Shown: positions 44,439-63,018 of the stretch, piece by piece
Numbering within the stretch: the first letter of the stretch is position 1
Layout of the letters: each line of letters begins with the position of its first letter
Assembly: GCA_017303755.1 (NCBI GenBank)
Contig: JAFLBS010000001.1
Span: 248,001-312,000 of the forward strand
Length of the DNA: 64,000 bases
Source: Flavobacteriales bacterium
GTDB lineage: Bacteria > Bacteroidota > Bacteroidia > Flavobacteriales > Flavobacteriaceae
Direction of reading: 5' to 3'
Made by a program: the position numbers and the translations under genes
Notes under the pieces: generated by a model
Seen by the model: the letters and a program-made list of their open reading frames with translations, nothing else
Databases searched by the model: none
What the model was told of the DNA's origin: nothing

Positions 44439-44578
44439 AGTCAAAATTGGCTATTTTAAAATTTGCTTTAAATTTAGCTTACCCATTAACATACACTAAA
44501 AGGGAGTAATAATCGTTGAGTCAAACAAGAGATTTTTTTATTTTAAGTTGAGTATTGTTTACTACTTGGAAGAATAAA

Positions 44579-45091
44579 TTATTCTGAAATTGATTTAGAA
44601 TTATTTTTAATAGCATCTCCGTAATTAGAAACACTTCCTGAACCCATTATTTCGCTATTGATTTCTCCATCGCAATTTACAACCACTTCACCTCCATTTT
44701 TTATAATAATATCAGTTTTGTATGATTTAAAGAACTGACCCTGAAATTTAGAATCGTTATCTATGCTAATTTTCAATTTTTGGGTTTCGTTGAATCCGAA
44801 TGACGCTTTACTTCCTTTTGACAATTGACAATTAAATTTAGCATCACTCACACAATCGTCATCAATTATAACTGATGTATTGTTAATAAGTTCAATTGAC
44901 TTTAAGTCATTGGTTCCGATTACAATTGTTTTACAATCATTGTTGTATATTGACAGTGTTTGTTTAAGCAGAGTATAATTAAGTTTTTCAACATCTATAC
45001 AAGAGATAAAAGGAGCTTCAGAGTTGACAATGCTAATACTACACATACCATTCACTTTTAAATTGTAGAATTTTTCGATATTTTTTTCCAT
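44579..45091 (-). CDS. Repeat-rich DUF2807-like protein, last gene of the RiPP operon
   Basis: 170 residues without a signal peptide or transmembrane segment. The sequence is made of short alternating beta-type repeats rich in Asn, Ser and Ile (NDCKTIVIGTNDLKSIELINN, DSKFQGQFFKSYKTDIIIKN, GGEVVVNCDGEINSEIMGSGS), similar in style to the head domain of DUF2807 adhesin-like proteins, though those are usually exported. It begins 6 nt after the adaptor gene, so it is co-transcribed. Possible roles are immunity, scaffold or peptide binding; none can be shown from sequence. Confidence 0.6.
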   Translation of the reverse strand: MEKNIEKFYNLKVNGMCSISIVNSEAPFISCIDVEKLNYTLLKQTLSIYNNDCKTIVIGTNDLKSIELINNTSVIIDDDCVSDAKFNCQLSKGSKASFGFNETQKLKISIDNDSKFQGQFFKSYKTDIIIKNGGEVVVNCDGEINSEIMGSGSVSNYGDAIKNNSKSISE

Positions 45092-45097
45092 ATTCTT

Positions 45098-45583
45098 TTA
45101 TTTAAAAAGTTGTCTAAATAATGATTCTTCTTGAATTAATATTTTGGCTTTTCCTTTATAAAAAGGTTTTACCTGAATTTCTTTATTCATATTTGTAATG
45201 ACCTGAAATTTTATCTCTGCATGAACTTCAAATTCAGAACTTGATGAAGTTGGTTGGTCTATTGATGAAATTTCAGCATCTATTGAACCAAATGAGTTTT
45301 CTGGAAAGCTGACTAAAGACACCTTGATTTTGCTCTTTTCCTTTATTTTAGTGATCAGTTCTTGAGGAATCTTACATTTGAAAACAAGAGTGTTTTTTTT
45401 GTCAGAAGGATAAACCATTCCATCACTTTGATAATAAACAGGATAATTAACTTGCGTACTCGTCCAAAGAATCAGCAGAAAAACCAATAGTAAAATTACA
45501 CTACCAAATCTTATATACCATTTGGGTATGTTTCTCAATATTTCATGAGTCTGATTATTTATATTGTCAAAATTTATTGGCAT
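45098..45583 (-). CDS. Very short HlyD-like membrane fusion protein
   Basis: 161 residues against 350-450 for normal HlyD-type adaptors. One transmembrane helix (about 26-43, FGSVILLLVFLLILW) after a cytoplasmic start (NQTHEILRNIPKWYIRFG), then a single beta domain with the adaptor-like end VKPFYKGKAKILIQEESLFRQLF. The lipoyl domain and long coiled-coil hairpin that reach TolC are missing, while the N- and C-terminal parts are preserved. It lies 5 nt downstream of the ABC exporter gene and surely works with it. Confidence 0.7.
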   Translation of the reverse strand: MPINFDNINNQTHEILRNIPKWYIRFGSVILLLVFLLILWTSTQVNYPVYYQSDGMVYPSDKKNTLVFKCKIPQELITKIKEKSKIKVSLVSFPENSFGSIDAEISSIDQPTSSSSEFEVHAEIKFQVITNMNKEIQVKPFYKGKAKILIQEESLFRQLFK

Positions 45584-45588
45584 ACTAT

Positions 45589-47835
45589 TTATTTTTCAAG
45601 TTCTAATTGATTTTTTACTAAATTATAGTAAGCACCTTTTTTTGCTACTAGTGATTTGTGATTTCCTTTTTCAATTATTTCGCCTTTATCAAGAACTATT
45701 ATCTGATCTGCATTTTTAACTGTACTAAGTCTGTGGGCAATTGTTACAACCGTTTTACCGTTAAAAAAAGAATCTAAATTTTCCATGATAATTTTTTCAT
45801 TATTAGCATCTAAAGAGCTTGTTGCTTCGTCAAAAAATAGATAATTTGGATTTTTATATACTGCTCTTGAAATTAAAAGTCGTTGAATTTGACCGCCACT
45901 CAAACCACCGCCATTAGCGCCGAGTAAAGTCCCTAAACCAGATGGAAGACCTTTAATATAATCTGTAATATTAGCAACCTCAATTGATTTATATAATTGT
46001 TCTTTATTAATTTCATTACCATCTACGGCAATATTTCTGGCAATAGTATTAGCAAAAATGTATCCGTCTTGCATAACTGTACCGCATTGTTTTCTCCAAT
46101 ATTTACTATCTATACTATTGATGTCATTCAGACCTATTTTTATATTTCCCTCAAGTGGCTGATAAAACTTGAGTAATAATTTAAGTAGTGTTGTTTTTCC
46201 GCTTCCACTAGTTCCGACAATAGCGGTTATTTTGCCTTTGGGTATTATTAAGTCAATGTTTTTTAATACTGTAGGAGAATGTGGCCCACCGTATTTGAAA
46301 GAAACATTATCCAATACTATATCATCGTGAATATCAGTGTTTAGCGGATTAAACTCAAAATCTCCCATTTGAAACTCTTCCTCAGACTCTTTTGAATGAA
46401 TCTCTCTTAAGCGTTCGGTACTTATTTTTGCATCTTGCAATGAACGGAAGAAATTGATGAGTTGTCTTAGAGGTTCATTAGTTTGTCCGATTATGTATGA
46501 TATACTTAGCATCATACCAATTGTTATGTTTCCATTAATAACTTCAACAGTAGCGATATAGGATATTATTATATTTTTTAATTGAGTGATAAAATTGAAC
46601 CCAATTCTTTGATACTGATCCAACAAAAGGCTTTTGGTATTAATTTTAAACAATTTTGCTTGAATTCGTTCCCAATCCCAACGTTTAGATAGTTCACTGT
46701 TGTTCAGTTTGATTTCTTGCATTCCGGCAACAATTTCCATGATACTATCTTGATTGTCTCTTAGACTTTGAAATCGTTTATAATCTAAGTTCTTTCTTTT
46801 TTTCAAAAACAAGACTACCCAAATACAAGATAAGACACTGAGAGAGAAAAAAACGGCGAATATTTTCCAGTTGTAGATTGTTAAGACAACTGAAAAAACA
46901 ATAATATTAATTATTGAAAAAACAGAGATTAAAGCTGTACTTGTTAAGAAATTTTCAATTCTATAATGGTCATTGATTCGTTGAGTTATATCTCCGGTTG
47001 TTCTTGAATCATAAAATTTTACTGGAAGTTTCATTAATTTTACGAGAAAATCTGAGATAATTGCCAGTGAAATTCTTGTGTTTACGTGTAATAATATCCA
47101 ATTCCTAATTAACTCAACAGCTGTTTCACCTATGAATAGTACAAGTTGTGACAGAAGAATTAGAAGAACAATATTTAAATTTTTATTGGCAACTCCATTG
47201 TCTATGAGATTTTGCATCAAATAAGGAAAAAGCAATGAGATGCCACTTCCAATCAACATTCCTATAAAAAGTTGAATAAAATATTTTTTATAGGGTTTTA
47301 TGTATTTGATTAGAAACAAAAGCCCTTTATTCTCTTCATTAGTCTTGTCTTCAATCTCTTCATCCTCTTTGTAAAAATCTTCGGTTGGAACCAACATTAA
47401 TGCAATTCCCTTATCAGTATTGTTAGTTTGCCAACTTTTTATAAAGCTTTCTTTATCAATTTCTATTAAATCATGAGCTGGATCGGCAATTGAAAACTTA
47501 TATTCTTTTTTTCGGGAGAAGAGCGAACTTGTTTTTTTAATTTTATGTAAAACTACAAAGTGATTTTGATTCCAATGCAATATTGCTGGAAGAGGACAAT
47601 CTTCAATTAGTTGTTCGATTGTGATTTGAACCATCATAGATTTGAGTCCAATCCTCTCACAAGCTTCGCTCATATCAAGAAGACTTACACCTTGTTTTCC
47701 AATAAAAGAGATTTGTCTCAAATAGTCCAAATCGAAATCTCTTCCATAATAATTGCAAATCATTCTTATACAGGCTGGACCACAATCCATTCTATCATAC
47801 TGAAAGTGATATGGAAATTTCGAATTGATACTCAT
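45589..47835 (-). CDS. Peptidase-containing ABC exporter (C39 bacteriocin type)
   Basis: 748 residues in three parts. The N-terminal C39 cysteine peptidase (1-140) has catalytic Cys18 in RMDCGPACIRM, the His region LHWNQNHFVVLHK and Asp in IADPAHD. A six-helix transmembrane domain follows (about 180-460). The ATPase domain (500-748) has Walker A GTSGSGKTT, signature LSGGQIQRLLIS, Walker B YLFFDEATSSLD and H-loop IAHRLS. C39 exporters cut after a Gly-Gly leader while exporting the peptide; the two peptides encoded upstream have exactly such leaders. Confidence 0.95.
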   Translation of the reverse strand: MSINSKFPYHFQYDRMDCGPACIRMICNYYGRDFDLDYLRQISFIGKQGVSLLDMSEACERIGLKSMMVQITIEQLIEDCPLPAILHWNQNHFVVLHKIKKTSSLFSRKKEYKFSIADPAHDLIEIDKESFIKSWQTNNTDKGIALMLVPTEDFYKEDEEIEDKTNEENKGLLFLIKYIKPYKKYFIQLFIGMLIGSGISLLFPYLMQNLIDNGVANKNLNIVLLILLSQLVLFIGETAVELIRNWILLHVNTRISLAIISDFLVKLMKLPVKFYDSRTTGDITQRINDHYRIENFLTSTALISVFSIINIIVFSVVLTIYNWKIFAVFFSLSVLSCIWVVLFLKKRKNLDYKRFQSLRDNQDSIMEIVAGMQEIKLNNSELSKRWDWERIQAKLFKINTKSLLLDQYQRIGFNFITQLKNIIISYIATVEVINGNITIGMMLSISYIIGQTNEPLRQLINFFRSLQDAKISTERLREIHSKESEEEFQMGDFEFNPLNTDIHDDIVLDNVSFKYGGPHSPTVLKNIDLIIPKGKITAIVGTSGSGKTTLLKLLLKFYQPLEGNIKIGLNDINSIDSKYWRKQCGTVMQDGYIFANTIARNIAVDGNEINKEQLYKSIEVANITDYIKGLPSGLGTLLGANGGGLSGGQIQRLLISRAVYKNPNYLFFDEATSSLDANNEKIIMENLDSFFNGKTVVTIAHRLSTVKNADQIIVLDKGEIIEKGNHKSLVAKKGAYYNLVKNQLELEK

Positions 47836-47847
47836 TTACTCTAATTT

Positions 47848-49113
47848 TTATTTTTTAAAACTCTCTAATTCAATTGCATAATCTGGTTCTTCCATTTGTA
47901 ACATTTCATCTTCAATCATCTGAAGTGCTTCATGATAGGTGATTTTTTCAACTTCCATTTCTTTTATGAATTCTTCAGGTAATTCATTGATAACTGTATT
48001 TTGAATATGAGTAATTAGTTTTAATAAGTCGTTGCAGTAAACTGAAGGATTGTTGAATCCATTTTTACTACTGTATCTATGAGGAATATATCCGCCACCA
48101 CACACTTCTTTTACTGGGCATGCAAGACATTTTTTTGCTACTTTGATATGACTGTAATGATACATTTTGGCCAAGTCAGTTTGCATTGCATTATTAAATG
48201 AATGAGTAGCCACGTTGGCTCCAGCCTTTGTAAATCCGTCGCCACAGGCTTTTAGCACGTCTACAGCTTCAATTTCTCCATCAGTTTCAATAACTAATAA
48301 TTCATTTTTTTCAGAACCCAGATGGTCAAAACTAATATCATTACCAAGTATTAATCCTGTTATGAATTCGAATATCCTAACTCTTAGTCTACCATCATTC
48401 TCTTTAAACCAAACATCAAACATTTTGATTAGCCAATCGGCATAGGGATGATCACTATTTTCATAATGTTTTGCTGGAGGTGGATTGTCATAGGTATAAT
48501 CTGGCAATAATATATCAATACTAGTAATTCCAAGCATTTTAAACTGGTTGTAAATTTCAACTGGATCAGAATCAATATTTAAAACACAAAGTACACCTGG
48601 CTTTCTGATAAGATGTTCTGATTCCTGAGCTATTTTTAGTCCTTTAATAACATCATCATAGGTACCGTTACCTTTAAAATCTAATCGGTACATATCATGT
48701 GCTTCTTTGGTTCCGTCTAAGCTTATACCAATATCAAAATCTAATTCTGCTAGCGTTTTGCACCATTCTTCATTGATCATCATTCCGTTGGTTTGAACTG
48801 AAAATGAAGGTGTAACTTCTGGCATTAATATTTCATTTGCCTTAGCAACAATCATTCTAAAAAAATCCTGCCCTGCCAAGAGAGGTTCACCACCATGTAA
48901 TGAAAAAACATATCTATTAATTCCGTTTTCTATACAATGCTCTCGCACTCTGTTCATCATTTCGACAACAGTCTTTTCACTCATTTTTTTGGGTAACTTC
49001 AAATATGAGTTATCACCCAAGTTATACATATAACAATAAGTACAGTTAATATTGCATCTACCGGTAATTTTTACAACTACCATATAACATTTTAAGTTTT
49101 CATTTGTATCCAT
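47848..49113 (-). CDS. Radical SAM/SPASM peptide maturase, FxsB-like
   Basis: 421 residues. The radical SAM cluster motif is CNINCTYC (Cys20, 24, 27) followed by YMYNLGD. The barrel has FSLHGGEPLLAG, FSVQTNGMMINEEW and DIGISLDGTKEAHD. The C-terminal SPASM region with auxiliary-cluster cysteines (about 329, 332, 338 and 360) reads CLACPVKEVCGGGYIPHRYS then NPSVYC, closely resembling FxsB-type maturases as I remember them. Those enzymes form three-residue cyclophane links in their peptides. It is placed between the precursor genes and the exporter, 12 nt from the exporter. Confidence 0.92.
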   Translation of the reverse strand: MDTNENLKCYMVVVKITGRCNINCTYCYMYNLGDNSYLKLPKKMSEKTVVEMMNRVREHCIENGINRYVFSLHGGEPLLAGQDFFRMIVAKANEILMPEVTPSFSVQTNGMMINEEWCKTLAELDFDIGISLDGTKEAHDMYRLDFKGNGTYDDVIKGLKIAQESEHLIRKPGVLCVLNIDSDPVEIYNQFKMLGITSIDILLPDYTYDNPPPAKHYENSDHPYADWLIKMFDVWFKENDGRLRVRIFEFITGLILGNDISFDHLGSEKNELLVIETDGEIEAVDVLKACGDGFTKAGANVATHSFNNAMQTDLAKMYHYSHIKVAKKCLACPVKEVCGGGYIPHRYSSKNGFNNPSVYCNDLLKLITHIQNTVINELPEEFIKEMEVEKITYHEALQMIEDEMLQMEEPDYAIELESFKK

Positions 49114-49137
49114 CTGTTTTCTGTTTAAAATTGTTAA

Positions 49138-49170
49138 TAATGCCGTTGCCTTTGAAAAACAACGGCATTA
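49138..49170 (-). promoter_or_regulatory. Hairpin between the precursor genes and the maturase
   Basis: A perfect 11-bp stem (TAATGCCGTTG / CAACGGCATTA) with an 11-nt loop in the 70-nt gap. There is no clean T run after it, so it looks more like an attenuator or RNA-stability element than a full terminator; it would let the peptide genes be expressed above the enzymes. Confidence 0.65.
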
Positions 49171-49183
49171 ATTTGAACCGCAG

Positions 49184-49372
49184 TTATCTTGTAGATTGAC
49201 TGTGAGTTTGGCTGTGTCCTGAACCAGATTGACTATGAGTTTGGCTATGTGGTTTTAAACCTCCTAGCACATTCTCACCCATGTCTTTAATTGCAGAATT
49301 TTCTAACTTCTCGAAAGCGTTAGGCATTCCTTTCAATTTTTCTGGATCAAGTCTAAAGTTTTTCTTACTCAT
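49184..49372 (-). CDS. RiPP precursor peptide B (His-Ser-Gln repeat core)
   Basis: 62 residues. The leader (1-38) includes AFEKLENSA and ends in GENVLGG, a double-glycine cleavage site (GG at 37-38). The 24-residue core holds four HSQ triplets, at residues 42, 46, 53 and 57, set in two HSQTHSQS blocks split by a Gly/Ser spacer. Leader residues KLENSA and ENV(L/I)GG are shared with precursor A. It is the substrate expected for the adjacent maturase and C39 exporter. It lies 81 nt after precursor A. Confidence 0.85.
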   Translation of the reverse strand: MSKKNFRLDPEKLKGMPNAFEKLENSAIKDMGENVLGGLKPHSQTHSQSGSGHSQTHSQSTR

Positions 49373-49453
49373 GATTGAAAAATTTTATTGTTACTACTAT
49401 GCATTCAACACCAAGCCATGAAAGCCCTTGGCTAATAGGTATCAAACAGAAAT

Positions 49454-49660
49454 CTAGTTTCTAGTTTGACTGTGAGTTTGGCTATGACCTGACTGACTGT
49501 GCGTTTGTCCATGACCTCCACTTTCACTGAAAGTTTGTCCGTGAACTCTCGCTCCTCCAATCACGTTTTCAACCACTCCACTTAGTGCTGAATTTTCAAG
49601 TTTTTGAAAAGCATCTTTGAGCTTTTCTTGACTCTCCTGATTAAATCGAAATTTTTTCAT
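49454..49660 (-). CDS. RiPP precursor peptide A (His/Phe-Gly/Ser-Gln/Glu repeat core)
   Basis: 68 residues. The leader (1-36) contains AFQKLENSA and ends ENVIGG (GG at 35-36). The 32-residue core has six triplets: HGQ at 40, FSE at 44, HGQ at 50, HSQ at 54, 59 and 63. One triplet replaces His with Phe and Gln with Glu, which shows that the pattern is aromatic-small-Gln/Glu rather than a plain His repeat. Such aromatic-x-polar triplets are the known target pattern of cyclophane-forming radical SAM enzymes. It is the first peptide gene, 108 nt after the receptor gene. Confidence 0.87.
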   Translation of the reverse strand: MKKFRFNQESQEKLKDAFQKLENSALSGVVENVIGGARVHGQTFSESGGHGQTHSQSGHSQTHSQTRN

Positions 49661-49768
49661 CGTTTTAATTGTTTAAATGTTAATACTTATTTAGAAATAG
49701 GTCGACACTATTTTTCTGTAATCAAAAGATCATTTTATGAAAAGTAAAATTGTTGACGCTTGAAAGAT

Positions 49769-52159
49769 TTAGATTCTCTTTCTCTCTGATTCATTACCAC
49801 TATTTCTGTCTCTTGTTTTATCTACTTTATTTTTCGAGAATTTATAAGACAGGCTGAAAGTGACTATTCTACTGTCATTCCTTTCGATAAATCCGTTGTT
49901 TTGATCCAGATAATCAACATCAATTTTGTAAAAAGTTCTATAGAAAATGTCGTTTACATTTAAAGAAACGTTGAGTTTATTTTTGTAGAAACTTTTCCTA
50001 ATACCTGCTGACAAATCAAAAGTGCTTCCGATTTCATATATTCCTTGAACGGACTTAGTAGCATATTTTAAAGACAATTCGCTTTTAAAAGTTTTATCTT
50101 TTGAGAGGACAAAAAAGTTGGATAAAGAAGTATAGAACCAAGGCGTTTCATTATTGAAGGTTGAACCTAAATAAGCCGAAGCTTCTTTTCGCATAGCAAA
50201 CTGAGAAAACAAACTTCCTTCATACCATTTTTTATAGGAAAATGAGGCAATAACGTGAAATCCGTAGTTAATACTTTTATCGAGATTTACTTGATTGTTT
50301 ACCAATGTGTTTGTGTTATTATCTTGTTCTGTTATATTGGTAAACACATCATCAACATGAGTATAGTACAGTGTAAAAAAGTATTTCGATTTTAAACTGT
50401 AAAGCAACTCAATGTTGTGTGTAAACGAAGGGTTTAAAAATGGATTTCCTTGCAAATAAGTGTTGGGTGTAGTATAAAAACGGAATGGATTCAATCTCCA
50501 ATAGTCAGGTCTAGAAATTCTTTTTCCGTAATTTAGATTGATTTTGTTGGCATCGTTTATTTGATATTGCAAATAGATTGTTGGGAAAAACTTAAAATAA
50601 TCTCTTTCTGTTGTTTGGTTATTTGTTTGAGAGTATCCTTCTGTTAGTGTGTATTCGCCACGAAGTCCAACTTCATAATCAATTAATTTAAACAATGTAG
50701 AATAATAGCTAAAGTACAATGCGTGATTATTCTCTTTGTAGGTGAAAATATTTGATTTGTTTTGATCAATAATTAAATTATTATTCACGATATCCCAAAA
50801 CTTCAAATCATTGTCGGTATTGATGTAACTGTATTTGTAGCCTGTATCAAACCCTGACTGATCGTTTATTGGGTTAGAATAATCTGACTTAAATGAATTA
50901 ATTGTGATTTCTTGGTTGGAATTATTAAGTGTATTAAATATTTCATTAGAAAAAACAGCGTCTGGTGAGTACGAATTTGAGAGAATATTTTGATCTCCAC
51001 CCGATTTAAAAATTGTTTTATCAATGTCAAAACTCAAGTATTTTCCTAATGAGTCAATTACTCTTTTATAGTTAAGGTTGAATGAATTGAGGTTTCTGTT
51101 GGGTTCATTTAAATTTTGGGTAACAATGGTTGAATCTAAAATTTGATTGGAATAAATTTCAGCATTGATTATTCTATTTGCTCTTGACCTTCCTGTAGAA
51201 CCATCGTATTGAAAACTAATTAAATCTTTATTTGAGAGATCATAATCAAGTACAAATTTGTAATTATGGCTTTTACTTCTATTGATGCGCTCATGATGTA
51301 AGAGCCAATTACTTGTATTAGAATTAGTGTTATAATTTATATATTCTTCTTCCAACATCAGGTTTTTTGAAAAATCGTTAGAATATTGCGCATTTATTCT
51401 AGCTTTTTTTTCAGTTGTATTTACTGTAATACCTGAACCAAATTTAGGAAAAGTGCTTTGTCTGTAATTTGATCGAACAAGCACATCGTAACCCAAAATC
51501 GATTTCTTTTTTGTAATGATATCAATTACTGCGGCACCTTCAGCGTCAAATTTTGCGGGTGGATTTGTGTACACTTCAATTTTTACGATGTCTTCTGCAG
51601 CTTTACCTTTAAAGAAATCGGCTAAATCATTTCCAGAAAGTTTAACAATTTTGCCATCAACATAAATTATTGCTCCTTTACCCATTGCGGTTATAAGACC
51701 ATCATTACTAACTCTGACACCGGGTGCGTTATTTAGTATATCGAAAAAATCGCGTCCATTTGAAGTGATAGAATTTTCAACATTGAAAACAAAACGATTG
51801 ACTTTTCTTTCAATCAATTTTTTATTTGGCGCTATAATTACTTCTTTAAGGATATTATTGGTATCCACTTTCAAAACACCTAAATTGGTGCTCTGGTTGA
51901 TTAGAATTTCTTGAGTTAAAAGTATGTTCCCAAGATGTCGAATTTGTAGTATACTTTTTTCGCCAGGAACTTCTAAGGTGAAATTACCATTGTTATCTGT
52001 TAATCCTACTTTAATAATTTTATTATCATCATTGAGGATAGAAACTTCAGCAAACTCGATAGGTTTGTCGTTTAAATCATGAATTACGCCAGTAACATTC
52101 AGTTGACTATAAACTGGAAGCCCTAACAATAAAATCAAAAATTTGAAGTAAAATTTCAT
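49769..52159 (-). CDS. Outer-membrane receptor-like beta-barrel protein
   Basis: 796 residues. A signal peptide (ending LPVYSQ) is followed by a CarboxypepD_reg-like domain (21-105, NVTGVIHDLNDKPIEFAEVSI), a plug-like domain (about 130-220, GRDFFDILNNAPGVRVSNDGL, AIIYVDGK, VEVYTNPPAKFDAEG-like), and a large barrel of the OMP_b-brl_3 type (DANKINLNYGKRISRPDYWRLNPF, YLQGNPFLNPSF). It resembles TonB-linked receptors but shows no obvious TonB box. Placed directly upstream of the peptides, it may export, take up or give immunity to the product. Confidence 0.88.
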   Translation of the reverse strand: MKFYFKFLILLLGLPVYSQLNVTGVIHDLNDKPIEFAEVSILNDDNKIIKVGLTDNNGNFTLEVPGEKSILQIRHLGNILLTQEILINQSTNLGVLKVDTNNILKEVIIAPNKKLIERKVNRFVFNVENSITSNGRDFFDILNNAPGVRVSNDGLITAMGKGAIIYVDGKIVKLSGNDLADFFKGKAAEDIVKIEVYTNPPAKFDAEGAAVIDIITKKKSILGYDVLVRSNYRQSTFPKFGSGITVNTTEKKARINAQYSNDFSKNLMLEEEYINYNTNSNTSNWLLHHERINRSKSHNYKFVLDYDLSNKDLISFQYDGSTGRSRANRIINAEIYSNQILDSTIVTQNLNEPNRNLNSFNLNYKRVIDSLGKYLSFDIDKTIFKSGGDQNILSNSYSPDAVFSNEIFNTLNNSNQEITINSFKSDYSNPINDQSGFDTGYKYSYINTDNDLKFWDIVNNNLIIDQNKSNIFTYKENNHALYFSYYSTLFKLIDYEVGLRGEYTLTEGYSQTNNQTTERDYFKFFPTIYLQYQINDANKINLNYGKRISRPDYWRLNPFRFYTTPNTYLQGNPFLNPSFTHNIELLYSLKSKYFFTLYYTHVDDVFTNITEQDNNTNTLVNNQVNLDKSINYGFHVIASFSYKKWYEGSLFSQFAMRKEASAYLGSTFNNETPWFYTSLSNFFVLSKDKTFKSELSLKYATKSVQGIYEIGSTFDLSAGIRKSFYKNKLNVSLNVNDIFYRTFYKIDVDYLDQNNGFIERNDSRIVTFSLSYKFSKNKVDKTRDRNSGNESERKRI

Positions 52160-52203
52160 CTAACAGAGTATTTACTTCAAATCTAAATCTATTTAAAAAC
52201 GGG

Positions 52204-52233
52204 GCATTATACTTTTACTGCCGTAATTGTTAA
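52204..52233 (-). promoter_or_regulatory. Shared 30-bp motif, copy upstream of the receptor/peptide operon
   Basis: In gene direction: TTAACAA, four bases, then GGCAGTAAAAGTATAATGC, ending 44 nt before the receptor ATG. The same two blocks at the same spacing occur at 55225-55254. A probable binding site of the adjacent response regulator or a special promoter; it contains TATAAT. Confidence 0.65.
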
Positions 52234-52257
52234 AAATTTATTTTTTTAATAAAATAA

Positions 52258-52926
52258 CTACAGAATTATACCTAAACCTCTCGAAACCTTGATGATATCT
52301 TCGTCGCTTCCGTGTTCTACATCTAAACAGGTTTTTATTCTTGACTTTCTTTTATTGATAGTATCCAAGGCTAGCGGAATGTATTCAGGAAGTTTTTTTG
52401 TTTGAACACCTTGGGCAATGAGATAGATTATTTTTTTGTCAATCTCATCAAAATAGAAATTAAGCTTTTTGAAAACATCTAAAGCATTTACAACAGTTTG
52501 CGAGTAGTAAACTTTATTATTTATAAACATTTCAAAGGCTTTATTGAGTTCTTCAAAATCAAAATCAATTTTTACTAAAACACCAATTGGGCGAATTAGA
52601 TTGATCATATTAGACAAAACAATAGGTTCAACATGTGACGTCAATATTACTATTTTGGCCTCTTTATTGATTTTTAAAATATACTTGGCCAAATCTTCAC
52701 CATTCATAAGTCCCTTTTCTTTGTATTCTGGCATACTTCTATCAATAAAAATAAAATCAAAATAATGACTATTCTCAGGTTTACTTAACACTGAATAGGC
52801 TTTTTCTATAGAATTACACAACACTGATTCAACTTCAATATTTAAAGTGTTTTGATTTAATATAGCATCGTATCCGAATAAAATAGACTCATGGTCGTCA
52901 ACCATTAAAATTTTAATTTTGCTCAT
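52258..52926 (-). CDS. LuxR-family-like response regulator of the RiPP island
   Basis: 222 residues. Receiver domain (1-135): Asp10-Asp11 (MVDDHES), phospho-acceptor Asp62 (IFIDRSMP), Thr of ILTSH, and Lys in LVKID. The C-terminal domain (about 155-215) has a LuxR-like helix-turn-helix (DEIDKKIIYLIAQGVQTKKLPEYIPLALDTINKRKSRI), which is diverged. It overlaps the kinase gene by 14 nt, so the pair is translationally coupled. The likely target is the 30-bp motif found before both operons. Confidence 0.88.
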   Translation of the reverse strand: MSKIKILMVDDHESILFGYDAILNQNTLNIEVESVLCNSIEKAYSVLSKPENSHYFDFIFIDRSMPEYKEKGLMNGEDLAKYILKINKEAKIVILTSHVEPIVLSNMINLIRPIGVLVKIDFDFEELNKAFEMFINNKVYYSQTVVNALDVFKKLNFYFDEIDKKIIYLIAQGVQTKKLPEYIPLALDTINKRKSRIKTCLDVEHGSDEDIIKVSRGLGIIL

Positions 52927-54925
52927 TTGTAGGTATAATAATAATTAATTCTGTACCATTATTTGTTTTGCTTTTTAGTTCAAAAGTTCCGTTCAGCAAC
53001 TTTACTCTATCTGTTATATTTGACAACCCAATACCTTTTTTGATTTTTGTCACATCCACTCCAATTCCGTTATCAATTATTCTCAAACGAAACTTTCCTT
53101 CAAATAAATCAGCAAAAACACTTGCTTTATTTGCTTTTGAATGTTTAGTTATATTTTGCAAACCCTCTTGTATGATACGATAAACATTTATTTTGAAAAC
53201 ATTATTTATTTCACTCCATATTATATCATTATCCACTTTTAGAGAAATTTCTATAGAATCATTTGAAGTCTCTTTCACTAAATTTTCAATTAGCAATAGA
53301 AAACTCTCTTTATTAAAGTATATATCTCTATTCAAATCGTGAGAGATATCTCTAACTTCTCTTTCTAGTTCTTTTAGTTGTTCTAAATATTTAATCGAGT
53401 TCTCAATTGTTGCTTTATCATGTTTTACTTTTAGAATTGATAAATTTAATCGTATACCTAATAATCTACTTTGAATTCCGTCGTGTAACTCCTTTGAAAT
53501 TCTACTTCTCTCACTATTTCTTCCCTCTTCAATTTTATTTTGCTGATCTATCATCAAATTAAAAATCTCTTCATTTGACTTTTGTTGCATTTGATTTAAC
53601 AACAATATCTTATGATTTGATTTTTGCCTGTAAATTATATACAATAACGATAAAAAAACTATTAAAATGGTAGAAAAAATTGCAATTAGTGTTCTTTGTC
53701 TACTAATTTTTTCTTTTTCAAAAATCAGCTCATCTGTTTCGTACTCAATACGAATGAACTTATTGCGAATCAATCGCTCTTTGTTGAGTAATTTATCTTT
53801 TAATGAAATAATTTCATTTTTATAGGCAACCCTATTTGTGGGCTCACAAAGGGATAAAAAATCCAACAAAACCATTTCGTCTCGATAACTTTTTACCTCT
53901 TTAGAAAGTTCCAATCCTTTATTAAAATAATCTAAAGCATGAGTTGTATCTCTTTTGGATAGATTAAACTCTCCTAATCGGGTATAACTTATTATGACTC
54001 CAAGCTTATTCGAAAGACTGTCTCTTATTTTTAATGGGACTAGAAAATCTTTCTCTTCAACTAAATCATGATTTTGAAATCTAGAGTAGGTAAGATTATC
54101 CAATAAAATTGCGTAAGAAAGTAAGTTTATTTTTTTAAGATTCGGGGTATTTAATCCTTTAACAAAACTCTCTATCGCTTTTGTGTGTTGCTCCGATTTT
54201 TGATATACTATTCCAATGTTGTTGTAGGTTTGTGCAAACAAATCGTTAGAGTCAAATTCATCTTTACTTCTATTCAACTGCTCTAAAGCCATCCCGTAAT
54301 AATAAATAGCTTTCTCAAAATCATTCAACTCATAAAATACCAATCCTAAGACATTATAACAGTCAAAAATCAATCTTTTATCATTAAAATTTTTAGCTAA
54401 TTTTAGTGCTTTTACCGCTTGGATTTCGCTCTCGGCAAAATTATTCTCATACAACTGAAGCTTAGCCATACTTAAAATAACTTGACCTATTTTTTCTTCT
54501 TGTTTGGTAGTTTTCAGCCATTTAACAGCTCTAGTGTAGTACAAGTAAGAGCTATCATTTGTTGCAAATTGAAAATGATAATCACCAATATCTCTGTAAT
54601 ATCTAGCAATTAACACGCTGTCTTTTGAGATTATAGACAATTTTAAATTCTTACGGCAAGTAGCTATGTAATCTTGCCATATTCCAAAATTATAATAATG
54701 GTTTGATAGTTTCCTCAAATAAATTCTATAAGTAGAATCTTTATCCTTTTGCTCTAAAATGGTTTTATATTTCTGCAAAGAAATTTTAACCGCAGCCGAA
54801 TAATAATAAGATCCATCTATAGACTGCGATATACTATCAAGAGATTTATAATCCTGATCAACCTTAATCGCTTTATCCTTACATGAAACAAAAAAAAATA
54901 TAACTATTAATACAAAACGATTCAT
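52913..54925 (-). CDS. Histidine kinase with periplasmic TPR sensor and lipobox-like start
   Basis: 670 residues. The N terminus (LIVIFFFVSCKDK, Cys15) looks like a lipoprotein signal. Several TPR-type helix pairs follow (about 110-350, for example VLGLVFYELNDFEKAIYYYGMAL and TYNNIGIVYQKSEQHTKAIESF). A transmembrane helix lies at about 412-432, then a coiled coil, a HisKA_3 domain with phospho-His481 (RISKELHDGIQSRLLGIRLNL), and an HATPase domain (IIQEGLQNITKHSKA, RIIDNGIGV, GIGLSNITDRVKLL). The TPR region is thus outside the cytoplasm and probably senses a peptide or protein. Confidence 0.92.
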   Translation of the reverse strand: MNRFVLIVIFFFVSCKDKAIKVDQDYKSLDSISQSIDGSYYYSAAVKISLQKYKTILEQKDKDSTYRIYLRKLSNHYYNFGIWQDYIATCRKNLKLSIISKDSVLIARYYRDIGDYHFQFATNDSSYLYYTRAVKWLKTTKQEEKIGQVILSMAKLQLYENNFAESEIQAVKALKLAKNFNDKRLIFDCYNVLGLVFYELNDFEKAIYYYGMALEQLNRSKDEFDSNDLFAQTYNNIGIVYQKSEQHTKAIESFVKGLNTPNLKKINLLSYAILLDNLTYSRFQNHDLVEEKDFLVPLKIRDSLSNKLGVIISYTRLGEFNLSKRDTTHALDYFNKGLELSKEVKSYRDEMVLLDFLSLCEPTNRVAYKNEIISLKDKLLNKERLIRNKFIRIEYETDELIFEKEKISRQRTLIAIFSTILIVFLSLLYIIYRQKSNHKILLLNQMQQKSNEEIFNLMIDQQNKIEEGRNSERSRISKELHDGIQSRLLGIRLNLSILKVKHDKATIENSIKYLEQLKELEREVRDISHDLNRDIYFNKESFLLLIENLVKETSNDSIEISLKVDNDIIWSEINNVFKINVYRIIQEGLQNITKHSKANKASVFADLFEGKFRLRIIDNGIGVDVTKIKKGIGLSNITDRVKLLNGTFELKSKTNNGTELIIIIPTNEQN

Positions 54926-54990
54926 TGAAACGAACTTTTTGTAAAAATAATTATATTTTAAAGAAAAGTAACTTGAAACGGACTCTTTAT

Positions 54991-55146
54991 TTAGTCGTTC
55001 TTTTTTGGAGGAATCGCTATCCCTTCATTATTAAACTGAACATCATGAAAATTACTGTTTTGATTTTGAGGGATTTCGTCTGCTGTACATGAAGATAAAA
55101 GACTCAATAAAACTACTGAAACTGCTAAAAGAATTAATTTTTTCAT
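54991..55146 (-). CDS. 51-residue lipoprotein upstream of the kinase
   Basis: Too short for usual gene callers. It begins MKKLILLAVSVVLLSLLSSC, a textbook lipoprotein signal with Cys20, and the mature part is only 32 residues (CTADEIPQNQ..., ending IAIPPKKND). It lies 65 nt before the kinase gene, on the same strand and downstream of one copy of the shared 30-bp motif, so it is probably first in the regulatory operon. Small lipoproteins with a Pro/Lys-rich end are, as I recall, found near similar kinases; it could be a ligand or accessory of the TPR sensor. Confidence 0.7.
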   Translation of the reverse strand: MKKLILLAVSVVLLSLLSSCTADEIPQNQNSNFHDVQFNNEGIAIPPKKND

Positions 55147-55224
55147 TGCTATAATATTTAAAAATTACACATTACAGAAAGCGCTCTACTTTCCGAAAAA
55201 AAATTAATTATTAAATACTCCTTA

Positions 55225-55254
55225 GCATTATACTTTTACTGCCTTTTTTGTTAA
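55225..55254 (-). promoter_or_regulatory. Shared 30-bp motif, copy upstream of the regulatory operon
   Basis: TTAACAA, four bases, then GGCAGTAAAAGTATAATGC, identical in both blocks to the copy at 52204-52233. It ends 78 nt before the ATG of the small lipoprotein. Confidence 0.65.
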
Positions 55255-55418
55255 TTTTTTAATATTTTAATATTATATATTGCAACATTGTTTATAAAAT
55301 TCATTTTTATCCGCATTTGTCGTTATTTACAAAACAAGCAACAGTTAACACACAAACAGGTGAAAACTAAAAGTTTATTGAAATAAGATTAAATGAAGAA
55401 ACTATTTTTAGTGGCGTT

Positions 55419-57113
55419 TCACCCTCGGTAGATTAGAAAATTATTAACTACCAACACATCCAGGTCAGTTTGATTAAAAAGTGATAACGCCTCCTGCGGA
55501 GTTTCTACAATTGGCATTCCTTTTCGATTAAGGCTTGTGTTAAGAACAACTGCAATACCCGATTCGTTTTCAAAGGCTTCTACCAATTTATAAAATCGAG
55601 GATTCCATGATTTTTCAATAGTTTGAACGCGTGCCGAACCGTCTTGATGTGTGACGTTACAAAGTTGTTGGAGAAATTCTTTTTTAGTTCGATCCACAAG
55701 AATCATGTACGGACTGTTGCGTCCTACTTCAAAATACTCGTGAACTTTTTCTTTTAAAACTGCTGGAGCAAACGGACGAAAATCTTCTCTAAACTTGATG
55801 TTTCGATTGATGTGGTCTTTCATTCCGATTATGCCTGGATGAGCTATAATACTTCTTCTTCCTAAAGAACGAGGTCCAAATTCTGAACCCGATTGAAACC
55901 AAGCAATTGTCTTACCTTCGTTGAGTTTTTTGGCACAGTAGTTTAGTAACTCCTCTTCATTATGAAATTCTATTTTTGAATAATCCTCTGATGAAATAAG
56001 CGCTTCTTCTACTTCTTTCTTCGTATAATTTTTCCCAAAACACGTGCTTCCATCGTGTTCTGCTTTTGGCATTTTTAGGTGTTCTAACCAACCGTAATAG
56101 GCGCAACCCAAAGCCAAACCATTGTCGGCTGCTGCGGGTTCGATGTAAAGATTTTTAATCAAATTTAAATCTTCGAGTTTGGCATTCGCAACAGCGTTTA
56201 AAGCCACACCACCCGAATAACATAAATTTTCGTTTGGAAACTGTTCTACTCTATTTTTAATGCAATGAATCACGGCTTTTTCAACTTGTTCTTGCGCCCA
56301 TTTGGCTACATTAGCGTAATAGTCAAAATGCTTTTTGAAGTATTCATAACCTTGCGATGGATTGGTGAAATGGTGTTTCCAATCGTCTTTGACCAATAAT
56401 CGTCCTGAATCAAACTCAAAAGCATCGAAGTTGTAAATACCAGATGTTCCGAAAGGCGCCAAACCCATTAATTTCCCAACATCGTCCATATCACCAAAAA
56501 CATAGTTACTGATGGAAGCATAAAATCCGCCAATGGAATGTTGTGTCGTTGGTAATTGAAATTCACTCGTCGATTGCTCTGCCATAACACTAAAATCCTT
56601 AATCAACGGAATGAGTTTTTGACCATCAAAATGATAAAAACTGTCTTTTTCGCATTGCATTTGATTGATTTCGAAAAAAGAAGCATCAATACTATTTTTT
56701 TGCTCAGGATGTAATTCAATGAATTGGTCTAATGGACTTCCACAACCGTCAATCACCATTACATTACAATCGGAAAACGGAGAAGTTCCCACTGCGCTGT
56801 ACGCATGCGCCAAATGATGAGAAATGTCTATGATTTTTGGTTGATTTGTATCGACGAACAAGCGCTTTCCTTTAAAAAAATCGCGTTTTGGAAGTGTAAA
56901 ATTTTCGCATTGAACCACAATCGCAATATCTTCTAAAGAAATCCCTTCCGCATCCAAACAATAGTGAATGGCTTCGGAATCGTTTCCGCCATCGTGTTTG
57001 ATACGAGTTATACGCTCTTTTTCGATAGCAACACACACTTTCCCATCTTTCAATAAAACAGCCGAACCGTTGTGTGACAATCCAGTTCCGAGTACATATA
57101 TAGGTTTAGACAT
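55419..57113 (-). CDS. NodU/CmcH-type carbamoyltransferase
   Basis: About 564 residues. These enzymes transfer a carbamoyl group from carbamoyl phosphate to a hydroxyl of a sugar or secondary metabolite. The N-terminal Kae1-like ASKHA domain has ISHHLAHAYSAVGTSPF, VMVIDGCGSPLD and NLCYSGGVALNAVANAKL; the C-terminal domain has FGPRSLGRRSIIAHP, FRPFAPAVLKE and VLNTSLNRKGMPIVETP. The frame opens at 57176, but the ATG at 57113 (MSKPIYVLGTGLSHNGSAVLL) fits the family. It stands alone, so the substrate is unknown; cell-surface glycan is a reasonable guess. Confidence 0.92.
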   Translation of the reverse strand: MSKPIYVLGTGLSHNGSAVLLKDGKVCVAIEKERITRIKHDGGNDSEAIHYCLDAEGISLEDIAIVVQCENFTLPKRDFFKGKRLFVDTNQPKIIDISHHLAHAYSAVGTSPFSDCNVMVIDGCGSPLDQFIELHPEQKNSIDASFFEINQMQCEKDSFYHFDGQKLIPLIKDFSVMAEQSTSEFQLPTTQHSIGGFYASISNYVFGDMDDVGKLMGLAPFGTSGIYNFDAFEFDSGRLLVKDDWKHHFTNPSQGYEYFKKHFDYYANVAKWAQEQVEKAVIHCIKNRVEQFPNENLCYSGGVALNAVANAKLEDLNLIKNLYIEPAAADNGLALGCAYYGWLEHLKMPKAEHDGSTCFGKNYTKKEVEEALISSEDYSKIEFHNEEELLNYCAKKLNEGKTIAWFQSGSEFGPRSLGRRSIIAHPGIIGMKDHINRNIKFREDFRPFAPAVLKEKVHEYFEVGRNSPYMILVDRTKKEFLQQLCNVTHQDGSARVQTIEKSWNPRFYKLVEAFENESGIAVVLNTSLNRKGMPIVETPQEALSLFNQTDLDVLVVNNFLIYRG

Positions 57114-57224
57114 TACTGATTTCTTTGTGCTAAAAATAGTGTTTAAATTGCAATTGACAAGGATTTTGCATTGCATAAAACGGTTTGGCAGGCACGATTT
57201 TGAAGCTATAATTTTATTTTTTTG

Positions 57225-57335
57225 GCCACGAATTCACAAATTAATTACAGTATAATTTGATTTTATTCGAATGTTCATCTAAGATGAACAAATTTTATGT
57301 TCTAAGCTATATTTTTTAATTCGTGAATTCGTGGC
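57225..57335. repeat. Inverted repeat GCCACGAATTC
   Basis: Arms at 57225-57243 (GCCACGAATTCACAAATTA) and 57317-57335 match at 18 of 19 positions when one is inverted, enclosing 73 nt of AT-rich DNA. A related GCCACGAATTCGCGAATT occurs at 37885. The rest of the gap 57114-57422 holds only the promoter noted separately. Confidence 0.75.
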
Positions 57336-57390
57336 AGAAAATTTACCACATCATTTATCACATTTTATTAAAAAAAACTGACTTATTCTG

Positions 57391-57398
57391 TACATTTG
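57391..57398 (+). promoter_or_regulatory. -7 box for the O-methyltransferase gene
   Basis: TACATTTG fits TAnnTTTG, 24 nt before the ATG at 57423. It supports that start over the TTG at 57396. Confidence 0.6.
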
Positions 57399-58611: not shown

Positions 58612-61600
58612 TTAATTCTCCCATTTTTTTCTTTCAGTGATGTAATAAATCAGCGGAACTACAATCAATGTTAGTAATGTAGAAACAATTGCTCCGAATA
58701 CTAACGAGATAGCCAATCCTTGAAAAATGGGATCAAAAAGGATGATGGATGCTCCAATAACCACCGCGCCTGTTGTTAATAAAATGGGTGTTGTTCGCAC
58801 CGCGCCCGCTTCGATAATGGCTTGTTTAAGTGGAATTCCATCATTCAAACGAATTTCGATAAAGTCGATGAGCAGTACCGAATTTCGAACCATTACTCCA
58901 GCCAAAGCAATCATTCCGATGAAGGAAGTTGCAGTGAAAAACGCACCTAACAACCAATGTCCTAATACAATTCCGACTAATGAAAGTGGAATCGCCATCA
59001 TCATCACCATTGGCGTTTTGAAATTTTGGAACCAACCAACAATCAACATGTAAATAATCACGATTACCACTAAAAACGCAGCACCTAAATCGCGGAAAAC
59101 TTCTAATGTGATTTGCCATTCGCCGTCCCATTTTACAGTGAAATCACTTTCATCGGCTGGTTGTTCCATATACAATTCGTTGACTTTATAGCCTTTGGGC
59201 AGCTTCATTTTTTGCAGTTTTTCGTTCATTCCCAAAATCGCATACACCGGACTTTCCAAAGCGCCCGCCATATCAGCTGTAACATACACAACGCGTTTTT
59301 GATCTTTTCTGTAAATGGTTTTCTGTAAAGTATCGGTCACCACTTTTACCAAATCAGAAACGGGAACTACGTTACCATAACTGCCTTTAATTTTTAAGTT
59401 TTGGATATCTTGTAACGAGGTTTTGTCTTTGTCATCCAACGAAAGCACAATCCCAACATTATCGTTAGAACGCTCATCGTACAAGTTGGAAACGGGATAT
59501 TCTTTTAACAAATACGTCAAATTTCCAACTACTTGTTGAGGCGCAATTCCGTTTAACATTGCTTTTTCTTTGTCGACTTCCAATTTGTATTCGGTTTGGT
59601 TATCTTCTACCATCCAATCGATATCAACGATATCAGTAGTGTTTTCTAAAATAGTTTTTACTTGATTGGCTACTGCAATTTGATCTTTGTAGTTCGGACC
59701 ATAGATTTCGGCAACCAAAGTGGATAATACTGGCGGTCCAGGTGGAACTTCGATAATTTTCACATTGGCTCCGTATTTCTTGGCAATTTTTTGAACTTCG
59801 GGACGAACAATTTTGGCGATGTCGTGACTTTGTAAATCGCGGTCTTCTTTGTGGAGTAAATTCACTTGAATATCGGCCATATTGCTTCCACCACGCAAAT
59901 CGTAGTGACGCACTAAACCGTTGAATGTGATTGGTGCAGACGTTCCGATGTAATTTTGGTAATTCACCACTTCAGGAATGGTCGACAAATACTGAGCGAT
60001 TTCTTGGGTAACTGCAGCGGTGCGTTCTAACGTAGTTCCTTCGGGCATATCAATCACCACTTGGAATTCATTTTTATTATCAAAAGGCAACATTTTTACA
60101 GCGACCGATTTGGTGAAAAACATCATCACCGAACCTAATAAAAGTAACACCGTAATTCCCAACATCAAGCGGCGTTTTTTCGAACTTTCTAAAAACGGAC
60201 GTTCCCATTTGTTGTAGATTTTGTAAATCCAAGACGTTTCTAATCCTTGTTCGGCTTTATGTTCTTGTTCGTCTTTTTCATGTAATAAATGATATCCTAA
60301 ATAAGGTGTTACAGTTAATGCAACAAACAACGACAACAACATCGCAATCGAAGCGCCAATTGGCATCGGACTCATATATGGACCCATCATTCCCGACACA
60401 AACGCCATTGGTAAAATAGCCGCAATAACAGTAAAAGTAGCCAGTATAGTAGGATTTCCGACTTCGTTAATGGCATAAATTGCGGCTTGTTTGAATGGCA
60501 GTCGCTTCATTTTGAAATGACGGTGCATGTTTTCGGCGATGATGATACTATCGTCAACTACAATTCCGACTACAAAAACTAGGGCAAAAAGGGTGATTCT
60601 ATTTAATGTATATCCCAATAAATAATAGGAAAATAACGTCAATGCAAACGTCAACGGAACCGAGAAAAACACGACCAATCCGCCGCGCCATCCCATGGCT
60701 AACATTACTAAAATAGTTACTGCTATAATAGCGATTCCTAAATGCATCAGTAATTCGCCTACTTTATGAGACGCAGTTTCGCCATAATTACGTGAAACTT
60801 CTACATGTACGTCATCAGTAATAACAGTGCGTTTTAAATGTTCTACTTTTTCTAAAATCTTCTCAGAAATTTTCATGGCATCGGCGCCTTTTACTTTCCC
60901 AATGGAAATGGTAACCGCAGGATATTCCGAATTATTTTTAGCGAAACTTTCGTTGGCTTTTCCGTACCCAAACGACACATAACTTCTAGGCGTTGACGGA
61001 CCATCTTGTACCGAAGCAACTTGTTTTAAATAGACTGGCATATTGGAATTAACACCAACCACTAAGTTTTCAATATCTTCTGAAGTAGATAAAAACTGAC
61101 CTGTTGTTACTAAAAACTCTTGGTCGCCCGACACAAAACTACCCGATTGTGAGCTTCCGTTATTGGCTTGAATCATTTGCATAATTCCAAGCGCATCAAC
61201 ACCATTTTCGGCCATCTTATCTTTGTCGAGCACTACTTTTACCTCACGATTTCGTCCACCGATTTCTTTGGTAATCGCAACGTCTTTTACTTTTTCGATT
61301 TCAGAAGTCACTTCTTCAGCGATTTGTCGGATTTCAAAATCGTTTAGTTTCTCACTCCACAGTGTTAATCCTAACATTGGAACATCATCGATGGAACGTG
61401 TTTTCACCATGGGTTTGTATACGCCTTGCGGAAACATATTTTCGTATTTGGCCAATTCGTCGTACAATTTCACGTACGAGCGTTCGACATCCTGACCCAC
61501 AAAAAACTGAACAATAATCATCGCCTGACCATTCATCGCCATACTATGAACATGTTCAACTCCTTTGATGTTCGAAATAATTTTTTCTAAGGGTTTTACG

Positions 61601-61803: not shown

Positions 61804-61876
61804 GTTTCTTTGTTTAAATGTTTAAGGTTTAAAAGTTTAAAATTGTTAACCAACTAAAACTTAAAACCGTAACTGA

Positions 61877-62971: not shown

Positions 62972-62980
62972 TTTAAAATT

Positions 62981-63018
62981 TATATTGATTTTTGAAATTG
63001 ATATTGTAATTGATTTTT
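62981..63018. repeat. ATATTGATTTTTGAAATTGATATTG text
   Basis: Inverse orientation of the CAATATCAATTTCAA family found at 19580-19677 and 40391-40480, in the gap between the TolC-like and adaptor genes. Confidence 0.55.

Follow-up and report, generated by a model that had tools for sequence, protein, structure and literature searches.

What is made by the ten collinear genes on the minus strand at positions 44579-55146 of a 64,000-nucleotide stretch of Flavobacterium DNA (assembly GCA_017303755.1, contig JAFLBS010000001.1, positions 248,001 to 312,000; hereafter the window), and how is its production controlled? The source genome comprises 4.07 Mb in 15 contigs. We consider it likely that these genes constitute a horizontally acquired, regulated island for a ribosomally synthesized and post-translationally modified peptide (RiPP) of the triceptide type. 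The locus is well supported as a RiPP system, and its parts are of known kinds. In a literature search made largely without subscription papers, we found no published description of this composition and no name for the combination or for its nearly all-histidine peptide.

Composition of the Gene Cluster

A first-pass annotation made from the sequence alone had listed ten genes in transcript order on one strand. The listing of open reading frames (ORFs), the Pfam domains, and the active-site motifs agree with that list, and all ten genes are present as open frames in the order given there. The proposed RiPP system, comprising an FxsB-like maturase, double-glycine peptides, and a C39 exporter, was likewise supported by family models and motifs. 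The 19-bp repeat, the RNA hairpin, and the borders of the island go beyond the first-pass annotation. The features are as follows, in the direction of transcription.

55225..55243, minus strand: 19-bp element GGCAGTAAAAGTATAATGC, copy 1, ahead of the lipoprotein-kinase-regulator unit, with a TAATTTTT box 18 nt downstream
54991..55146, minus strand: tiny lipoprotein of 51 amino acids (ORF; lipobox followed by C-T-A-D-E)
52913..54925, minus strand: tetratricopeptide repeat (TPR) sensor histidine kinase (Pfam TPR, HisKA_3, and HATPase_c; H-box ELHDG; N-terminal lipobox FFFVSC by eye)
52258..52926, minus strand: response regulator (Pfam Response_reg; weak similarity to NarL-type regulators over the full length; Pfam gives no helix-turn-helix match of its own)
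52204..52222, minus strand: 19-bp element, copy 2, ahead of the barrel-peptide-maturase-exporter unit, with a TAGATTTG box 18 nt downstream
49769..52159, minus strand: outer-membrane barrel PF14905 (OMP_b-brl_3; 319.9 bits), TonB-receptor-like, with a carboxypeptidase-regulatory-like N-terminus
49454..49660, minus strand: precursor peptide 1 (leader ending NVIGG; core HGQ FSE HGQ HSQ HSQ HSQ)
49184..49372, minus strand: precursor peptide 2 (leader ending NVLGG; core with four HSQ)
49138..49170, minus strand: 15-bp RNA hairpin found by folding, in the gap between precursor 2 and the maturase; a possible processing or partial-termination site
47848..49113, minus strand: radical S-adenosylmethionine (SAM)/SPASM peptide maturase of the FxsB/YhhB type (Pfam Radical_SAM, family models, and motifs)
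45589..47835, minus strand: C39 peptidase-ATP-binding cassette (ABC) exporter (Pfam Peptidase_C39 and ABC; catalytic motifs)
45098..45583, minus strand: mini adaptor of 161 amino acids (one membrane helix by eye and a C-terminal HlyD-like part only)
44579..45091, minus strand: DUF2807-like (head GIN domain) protein, a marginal match (24.8 bits versus a gathering threshold of 24.2), with no signal peptide seen by eye

The genus referred to below is Flavobacterium, and L numbers denote fetched comparison loci. For the maturase, 49 distinct loci were compared after L078, L079, L086, and L088 were removed as duplicates of L028, L024, L010, and L008, respectively. The DUF2807-like protein was rejected as a conserved member of the system; it had no match among the ORFs of related loci, and in the other genus genomes the matches were weak and confined to 4 of 149.

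The Peptide Maturase

The maturase contains CNINCTYC at residues 20-27 and further cysteines at 290, 329, 332, 338, and 360, and thus has the CxxxCxxC motif of the triceptide class. Its best-matching family is YhhB (NF041707), followed by FxsB (TIGR04269), whose model is covered from position 4 to 362 of 363; XyeB ranks third at 199.6 bits. The nearest solved chain is ChlB (PDB 9gm3, 221.7 bits). FxsB and ChlB are radical SAM/SPASM cyclophane formers, as the window enzyme is predicted to be. ChlB originates from a fused radical SAM-HExxH protein and is titled a multiple cyclophane synthase in a reference list (PMC12636437, a preprint), whereas the window enzyme is unfused and no HExxH match was found among the island proteins with Pfam or family models. 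According to the available part of a review (PMC11002830), YhhB joins C3 of Tyr and C2 of His to Arg, with the linked residues at i and i+2.

The maturases of all eight relatives tested fall, like the window enzyme, below the cut-offs of both YhhB and FxsB. Radical SAM enzymes are also known to form ether links and C-N links to His and to epimerize residues, and an enzyme that performed one of these reactions on the triplet described below would not produce a triceptide. The scores below both cut-offs would allow for this, and a related radical SAM enzyme forms an ether crosslink (PMC9055067). However, both of the top-scoring models and the closest chain of solved structure belong to cyclophane formers, and i to i+2 is the spacing of a three-residue cyclophane (PMC11002830). 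We regard a different reaction as quite improbable here.

Seven loci (L002, L003, L004, L007, L013, L015, and L017) have two or three related maturase genes each, for which the precursors were partly not found. A gene for a candidate hydroxylase of the HExxH type lies between the maturase and the exporter in L033 (10282-11409) and L070 (10203-11264); the products score 37.1 and 31.6, respectively, under the cut-off of 40 for TIGR04267 (alpha-ketoglutarate-HExxH hydroxylase).

Precursor Peptides and the Triplet Rule

Precursors 1 and 2 match each other at E 1.2e-13 and have the Gly-Gly leader in common. Nine His residues are spread across the two cores in regular H-S/G-Q triplets, and Gln or Glu is found at +2 of all 10 His and Phe residues, a value reached by 0 of 20000 shuffles. 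The tandem repeats also place Gln or Glu at -2 of 7 of these 10 residues, and the relatives are therefore the better test of a triplet. In 31 hand-picked precursors from relatives, Gln, Glu, Lys, Arg, or Asn was found at +2 of 80 of the 96 aromatic or His residues. None of 20000 shuffles reached this value; the maximum at the seven other offsets from -4 to +4 was 34%, and shuffled cores gave 27%. A second set was taken by rule without selection, using the last 26 residues of every ATG ORF of 40-110 amino acids ending no more than 420 nt upstream of any related maturase, non-genes included. These 82 candidate ORFs gave 140 of 244 at +2 and at most 33% at other offsets.

Left out of the hand-picked set were near-duplicates (L015, the second of L019, L022, L025, L028, L070, L071, L085, and extra copies from L013 and L017) and misfits or unsure cases (L005, L009, L012, the minus-strand type of L013, L015, and L017, L018, L027, L029, the second of L031, L080, L081, and L087). 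Nearer members of the family follow the rule strongly, and the fit is weaker in the Mucilaginibacter/Cytophagales type. The latter has two kinds of precursor, one (GGDKEYKP...) that fits the rule poorly and another that opens its core with one triplet (FVE, WRE, FIE, or WLQ). Paired precursors, one of the GGD(K/R) type and one with a single F/W-x-E/Q at the start of the core, are found in L005, L009, L012, L013, L015, L017, L018, and L204.

The first-pass annotation had suggested searching genomes for the maturase together with a C39 exporter and HSQ-repeat peptides. The exporter was indeed found in most of the related loci, as detailed below, but HSQ occurs in none of the 55 relatives' precursors examined. 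Examples of their triplets are W-T-Q, H-G-N, and F-S-K in L002, Y-S-Q, Y-T-E, and Y-G-Q in L020, and H-S-K, Y-S-Q, and Y-S-R in L033. Since no relative carries HSQ repeats, the target of the enzyme looks like a general ring-X-polar triplet that is here filled with His. The best internal clue is the one F-S-E that falls into the same register as the H-S-Q units, which suggests that the enzyme reads "ring-X-polar" and not "HSQ". The cores thus show the aromatic/His-X-polar pattern of the triceptide class. A search of 189 sampled genus genomes, including its own, with precursor 1 returned only itself and precursor 2. HSQ repeats as a marker of the family were rejected; the 33 named loci gave only two short ORFs with three His triplets (L001 and L023), both encoded on the other strand than the maturase and not precursor-like.

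Homologous clusters consistently without peptides had been named in the first-pass annotation as one case that would refute its proposal. This case did not arise. Among the 49 related loci, 43 have a short ORF that we recognized by eye as precursor-like, although some of these ORFs lack a strict Gly-Gly; none was recognized with confidence in L003, L007, L021, L023, L083, and L087.

The nine His residues in regular triplets and the neighboring barrel raise the possibility of metal handling. In such a system the poly-His product would chelate copper, zinc, or nickel, be exported, and be retaken via the TonB-receptor-like barrel, while the kinase would sense metal or envelope stress; the His-crosslinked RiPP noursin does bind copper (PMC10206099). 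However, relatives combine a similar chassis with cores in which Trp, Tyr, or Phe stands where the window has His (WEE, WGE, and WAE in L010; YSQ, YTE, and YGQ in L020), and metal binding is therefore unlikely as the function of the family. None of the ten proteins has a metal-transport or metal-regulator match with Pfam or the family models. Metal handling is an unlikely explanation of the locus.

Among individual precursors, that from Kordia (L010:8743-8931) has four tandem W-x-E triplets (WEE, WGE, WGE, and WAE). A short ORF with repeated G-H-A-R-S-L units precedes a distant maturase in Tateyamaria sp. (L027:8638-8904); its H-A-R fits the His-X-Arg link published for YhhB (PMC11002830).

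The RNA Hairpin

The hairpin between precursor 2 and the maturase has a folding energy of -18.6 kcal/mol (z -4.5; 0 of 200 shuffles). Thirty of the 49 loci were named for this analysis on the basis of a recognized precursor, and 28 of them, several being close kin, were folded; L010 and L082 were excluded because the gap was below the limit. The equivalent gap has structure at z <= -2 in 24 of the 28 relatives, mostly as one hairpin of different sequence, and no such structure was found in L005, L012, L014, and L018. The hairpin most likely sets the ratio of precursor to enzyme.

Gly-Gly leaders and C39 exporters also occur without maturases, and the two peptides might be plain unmodified bacteriocins that lie by chance beside a maturase. 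The order precursor-hairpin-maturase-exporter and the triplet rule nevertheless recur across genera, and we consider this reading highly improbable.

Export and the Outer Membrane

The exporter has the motifs DCGPAC and NHFVVLH, a Walker A motif, and LSGGQ. These Cys/His and ABC motifs, together with leaders ending in NVIGG and NVLGG, are those of double-glycine C39 export. On the maturase strand and within 9 kb, the 49 related loci contain a C39 exporter in 33 cases, a PF14905 barrel in 29, both in 25, and neither in 12, whereas none of 20 control loci centered on kinase/regulator homologues has either one. With tblastn, a C39 exporter was also found in L005 and L009, where antisense ORFs had hidden it from the ORF-based count.

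The adaptors form a series of decreasing length, from 432 amino acids with HlyD_3 in L028, through 238-239 in L004, L009, L012, and L018, to 161 in the window and 159 in L001. In alignments with the longer homologues, the short adaptors retain the membrane helix (by eye) and the last part of HlyD. The mini adaptor matches TIGR01843 weakly, at 14.8 bits and over model positions 307-409 of 422 only, and no lipoyl/hairpin part was found in it with Pfam. The full-length HlyD and TolC partner of canonical type I secretion are thus not encoded in the cluster. The shrinking series raises the question of which route out of a Gram-negative cell a peptide could take where a complete HlyD-TolC duct is missing. 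To the right of the island, at 58612-63919, are an RND (resistance-nodulation-division) pump, an HlyD-type adaptor, and an OEP (TolC-like) gene at 63017-63919. The last of these is a possible outer-membrane channel near the island.

C39 exporters, HlyD adaptors, SPASM maturases, and PF14905 barrels are frequent partners of ATP-grasp graspetide loci, and TonB-receptor relatives are found beside ATP-grasp loci most often in Bacteroidetes (PMC8939145). Because C39, HlyD, and PF14905 also partner these loci, the set looks, by analogy, like an export chassis in general use for Bacteroidota RiPPs, into which different maturases can be fitted. The ATP-grasp loci of branch 5, from Bacteroidetes, resemble the window in these frequent partners and in having a regulator, which is of the OmpR type and specific to the branch. 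They differ in that their peptides are matured by an ATP-grasp ligase (PMC8939145). No match to an ATP-grasp ligase was found among the ten island proteins with Pfam or the family models, and the island thus lacks the defining enzyme of the graspetides.

Regulation

The 19-bp element occurs as two exact copies in the entire genome, before the lipoprotein and barrel genes, with no other site within 2 mismatches. TAnnTTT is the core of the Bacteroidota -7 consensus, and such a box lies 18 nt past the element in both promoters; among 20000 shuffled pairs, 22 have any such offset in common. Copy 2 has an additional TAnnTTT at offset 13. The element would look like a candidate activator site for the two promoters, with the response regulator as the obvious candidate to bind it. 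A third operator on contig 8 was rejected, as it has 3 mismatches and a reversed-pattern control yields two such sites.

Homologues of the regulator (E 1e-12) and the kinase (E 1e-60) are found in 313 and 294, respectively, of 348 sampled genus genomes. The 20 control loci (L149-L168), all from Flavobacterium and picked as kinase/regulator homologues and not at random, contain no maturase, exporter, barrel, or adaptor. Of the 18 control loci that bear a kinase, 9 have a tiny lipoprotein ahead of it, as judged with a simple lipobox pattern, including the second copy of the trio in the source genome (L153), whose lipoprotein resembles that of the window by eye. From its presence in most genus genomes and from the 20 neighborhoods without RiPP genes, the lipoprotein-kinase-regulator trio is judged to be a genus-wide, mostly stand-alone module that was here recruited; the same control loci led us to reject a trio specific to RiPP loci. 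We found no description of it in the literature, which was again searched largely without subscription papers. Across the genus it is possibly an envelope-stress system or one for a lipoprotein-derived signal. The C-T-A-D-E start of the window lipoprotein resembles the acidic surface-export signal of F. johnsoniae (consensus SDDFE; PMC5080379), and by this analogy the protein is possibly displayed on the cell surface. The lipoproteins of the genus trios often end in a Pro/Lys-rich stretch.

The trio also adjoins clusters of barrel, precursor, radical SAM enzyme, and C39 exporter in L070 and L076, with the tiny lipoprotein before the kinase in both and a further regulator between trio and cluster (LytTR by Pfam in L076; by eye in L070). 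These two loci belong to different maturase clades, and their nearest sisters (L069 and L071; L073 and L075) lack the trio in the fetched stretch, which suggests that RiPP clusters have recruited the trio repeatedly. A weaker kinase/regulator pair is found near L087.

It could be argued that the trio is an unrelated neighbor that traveled with, or landed beside, the RiPP operon, given its frequency in the genus, the 20 loci fetched without RiPP genes, and the RiPP genes without a trio in L001, L069, L071, L073, and L075. However, the exact 19-bp element is confined, genome-wide, to these two promoters and stands at equal spacing in each. The kinase and regulator also have the low third-position GC content (GC3) of the RiPP genes, and the regulator adjoins a barrel in L070 and L076 too. 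An unrelated trio is, on this evidence, improbable. The kinase control proposed in the first-pass annotation thus gains from the common element and from the two other clusters with a trio. Its phrase "its own two-component regulation" was an overstatement, because kinase and regulator homologues are present in most sampled genus genomes and usually stand alone; a different kinase-regulator pair, moreover, heads the Spirosoma row discussed below.

Probable Acquisition of the Island

The GC content is 30.1% from 44.5 to 55.4 kb, versus 36.1% to the left and 37.4% to the right. Seven island genes tested, including those for the kinase and regulator, have GC3 values of 0.22-0.27 versus 0.38-0.41 for four flanking genes. 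The junction was compared in 10 of 11 matched same-genus relatives and in one genome from outside the family. In all ten genus genomes, rlmN and the O-methyltransferase gene (at 57396 in the window) are island-free neighbors, 54 bp to 4.5 kb apart, and the ten junctions have no match to the maturase, exporter, barrel, kinase, regulator, or the carbamoyltransferase-like gene described next; in the eleventh genome, only rlmN was found. This junction (window 44444-57396) is a variable site. From the low GC and GC3 and the island-free junctions, the RiPP genes and the trio appear to have been acquired at this site as a single unit. The gene at 55419-57176, between the island and the O-methyltransferase, is one that we take, by eye, to be carbamoyltransferase-like. 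It was not adopted as part of the system; its GC content is 0.378 versus 0.301 for the island, although the compared junctions lack this gene as well.

In a tree of 62 maturase sequences, the window enzyme pairs with that of a Chitinophagales metagenome-assembled genome (L001; 65% identity, support 100/100), and the best maturases sampled from the genus are 48% identical to it. The pairing with L001 over genus members is a sign of horizontal movement of the maturase, to be read with the caution that L001 is a metagenome-assembled genome. At E 1e-60 the maturase is patchy, occurring in 19 of 348 genus, 4 of 299 family, and 10 of 296 order genomes sampled, own genome included each time; the source genome has a single match.

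Proposed Pathway

In the pathway that we propose, the FxsB/YhhB-type enzyme would modify the two precursors that share the Gly-Gly leader. Judging from its family and the core motif, it would act within H-S-Q, H-G-Q, and F-S-E triplets and bond the ring of the first residue (His or Phe) to the beta-carbon of the third (Gln or Glu). Up to six successive triplets in precursor 1 and four in precursor 2 would give a string of three-residue cyclophanes. The hairpin behind the precursor genes may keep the peptide in excess over the enzyme. The C39 exporter is expected, from its motifs, to cut after Gly-Gly and to export the core with the mini adaptor, and the barrel could provide the mature peptide with an exit through the outer membrane, act as its receptor, or confer immunity, a role suggested by its association. 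The tiny lipoprotein and the TPR kinase would respond to a signal in the envelope, which could be the peptide itself; linkage suggests that the barrel and the kinase deal with one and the same peptide. The regulator is predicted to bind the 19-bp element and to activate both units from the -7 boxes at a fixed distance.

The most likely role is inter-bacterial, as an antibacterial or as a signal peptide with receptor-coupled self-control. Xenorceptides are named together with triceptides (XncB-type). An antibacterial role is reasonable in view of the BamA-directed activity reported for these antibacterials (PMC12971899). A more elaborate version would be a self-sensing circuit, in which a string of imidazole cyclophanes is exported via the hairpin-less mini adaptor, captured by its own barrel, and reported through the surface lipoprotein to the lipid-anchored TPR kinase, whereupon the regulator fires two identical operators; a captured genus module would have been given the peptide as its signal. 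This version is conceivable but doubtful.

Several observations weigh against a regulated triceptide island. The maturase scores 340.4 bits against FxsB, under the cut-off of 370. Compared by maturase model and linked residues, the YhhA/YhhB triceptide system (Sugiyama et al. 2022) matches best, yet the enzyme scores 346.1 bits against a cut-off of 445. The published YhhB, which takes His or Tyr at residue 1, links it to Arg at residue 3, where the window has Gln or Glu (PMC11002830). The 24 recognized precursors left out of the hand-picked set, a count that took in those left out except L029, the second of L031, and one of L009, follow the rule at +2 in only 47 of 83 cases and at -2 in 34 of 78. 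Under the search rule, 9 of 62 related radical SAM genes have no candidate ORF, and several others have only candidates that are not precursor-like. Neither exporter nor barrel is found on the maturase strand in 12 of the 49 loci (L006, L016, L021, L023, L025, L027, and L080-L085), of which L025 lies near a contig end, and no TolC-like (OEP) match was found among the island proteins with Pfam. L001, with the closest maturase, has neither barrel nor kinase trio nearby, and kinase and regulator homologues usually stand alone. The 19-bp element was detected through its repetition, and the TAATTTTT box of copy 1 falls short of the full TAnnTTTG.

The locus would provide a concrete example, open to experiment, of a multi-cyclophane RiPP whose rings are nearly all His, which has an outer-membrane partner encoded alongside it and a candidate operator already mapped. 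If true, the triplet rule would help to find precursors for many Bacteroidota maturases that score under the present family cut-offs, and the operator would make the input of the widespread Flavobacterium lipoprotein-kinase-regulator module searchable.

A similar arrangement is found on a plasmid of Spirosoma oryzicola (NZ_CP089546.1; L204, 14020-33186), where a kinase, a regulator, two short Gly-Gly peptides, a radical SAM enzyme, a C39 ABC exporter, and a 238-aa hypothetical protein in the position of the adaptor stand in one row. It differs from the window in its His_kinase/LytTR type of regulation and its cores, and no PF14905 barrel is annotated in the 19 kb covered. The row adjoins genes for a lantibiotic dehydratase, an HlyD adaptor, and a peptidase.

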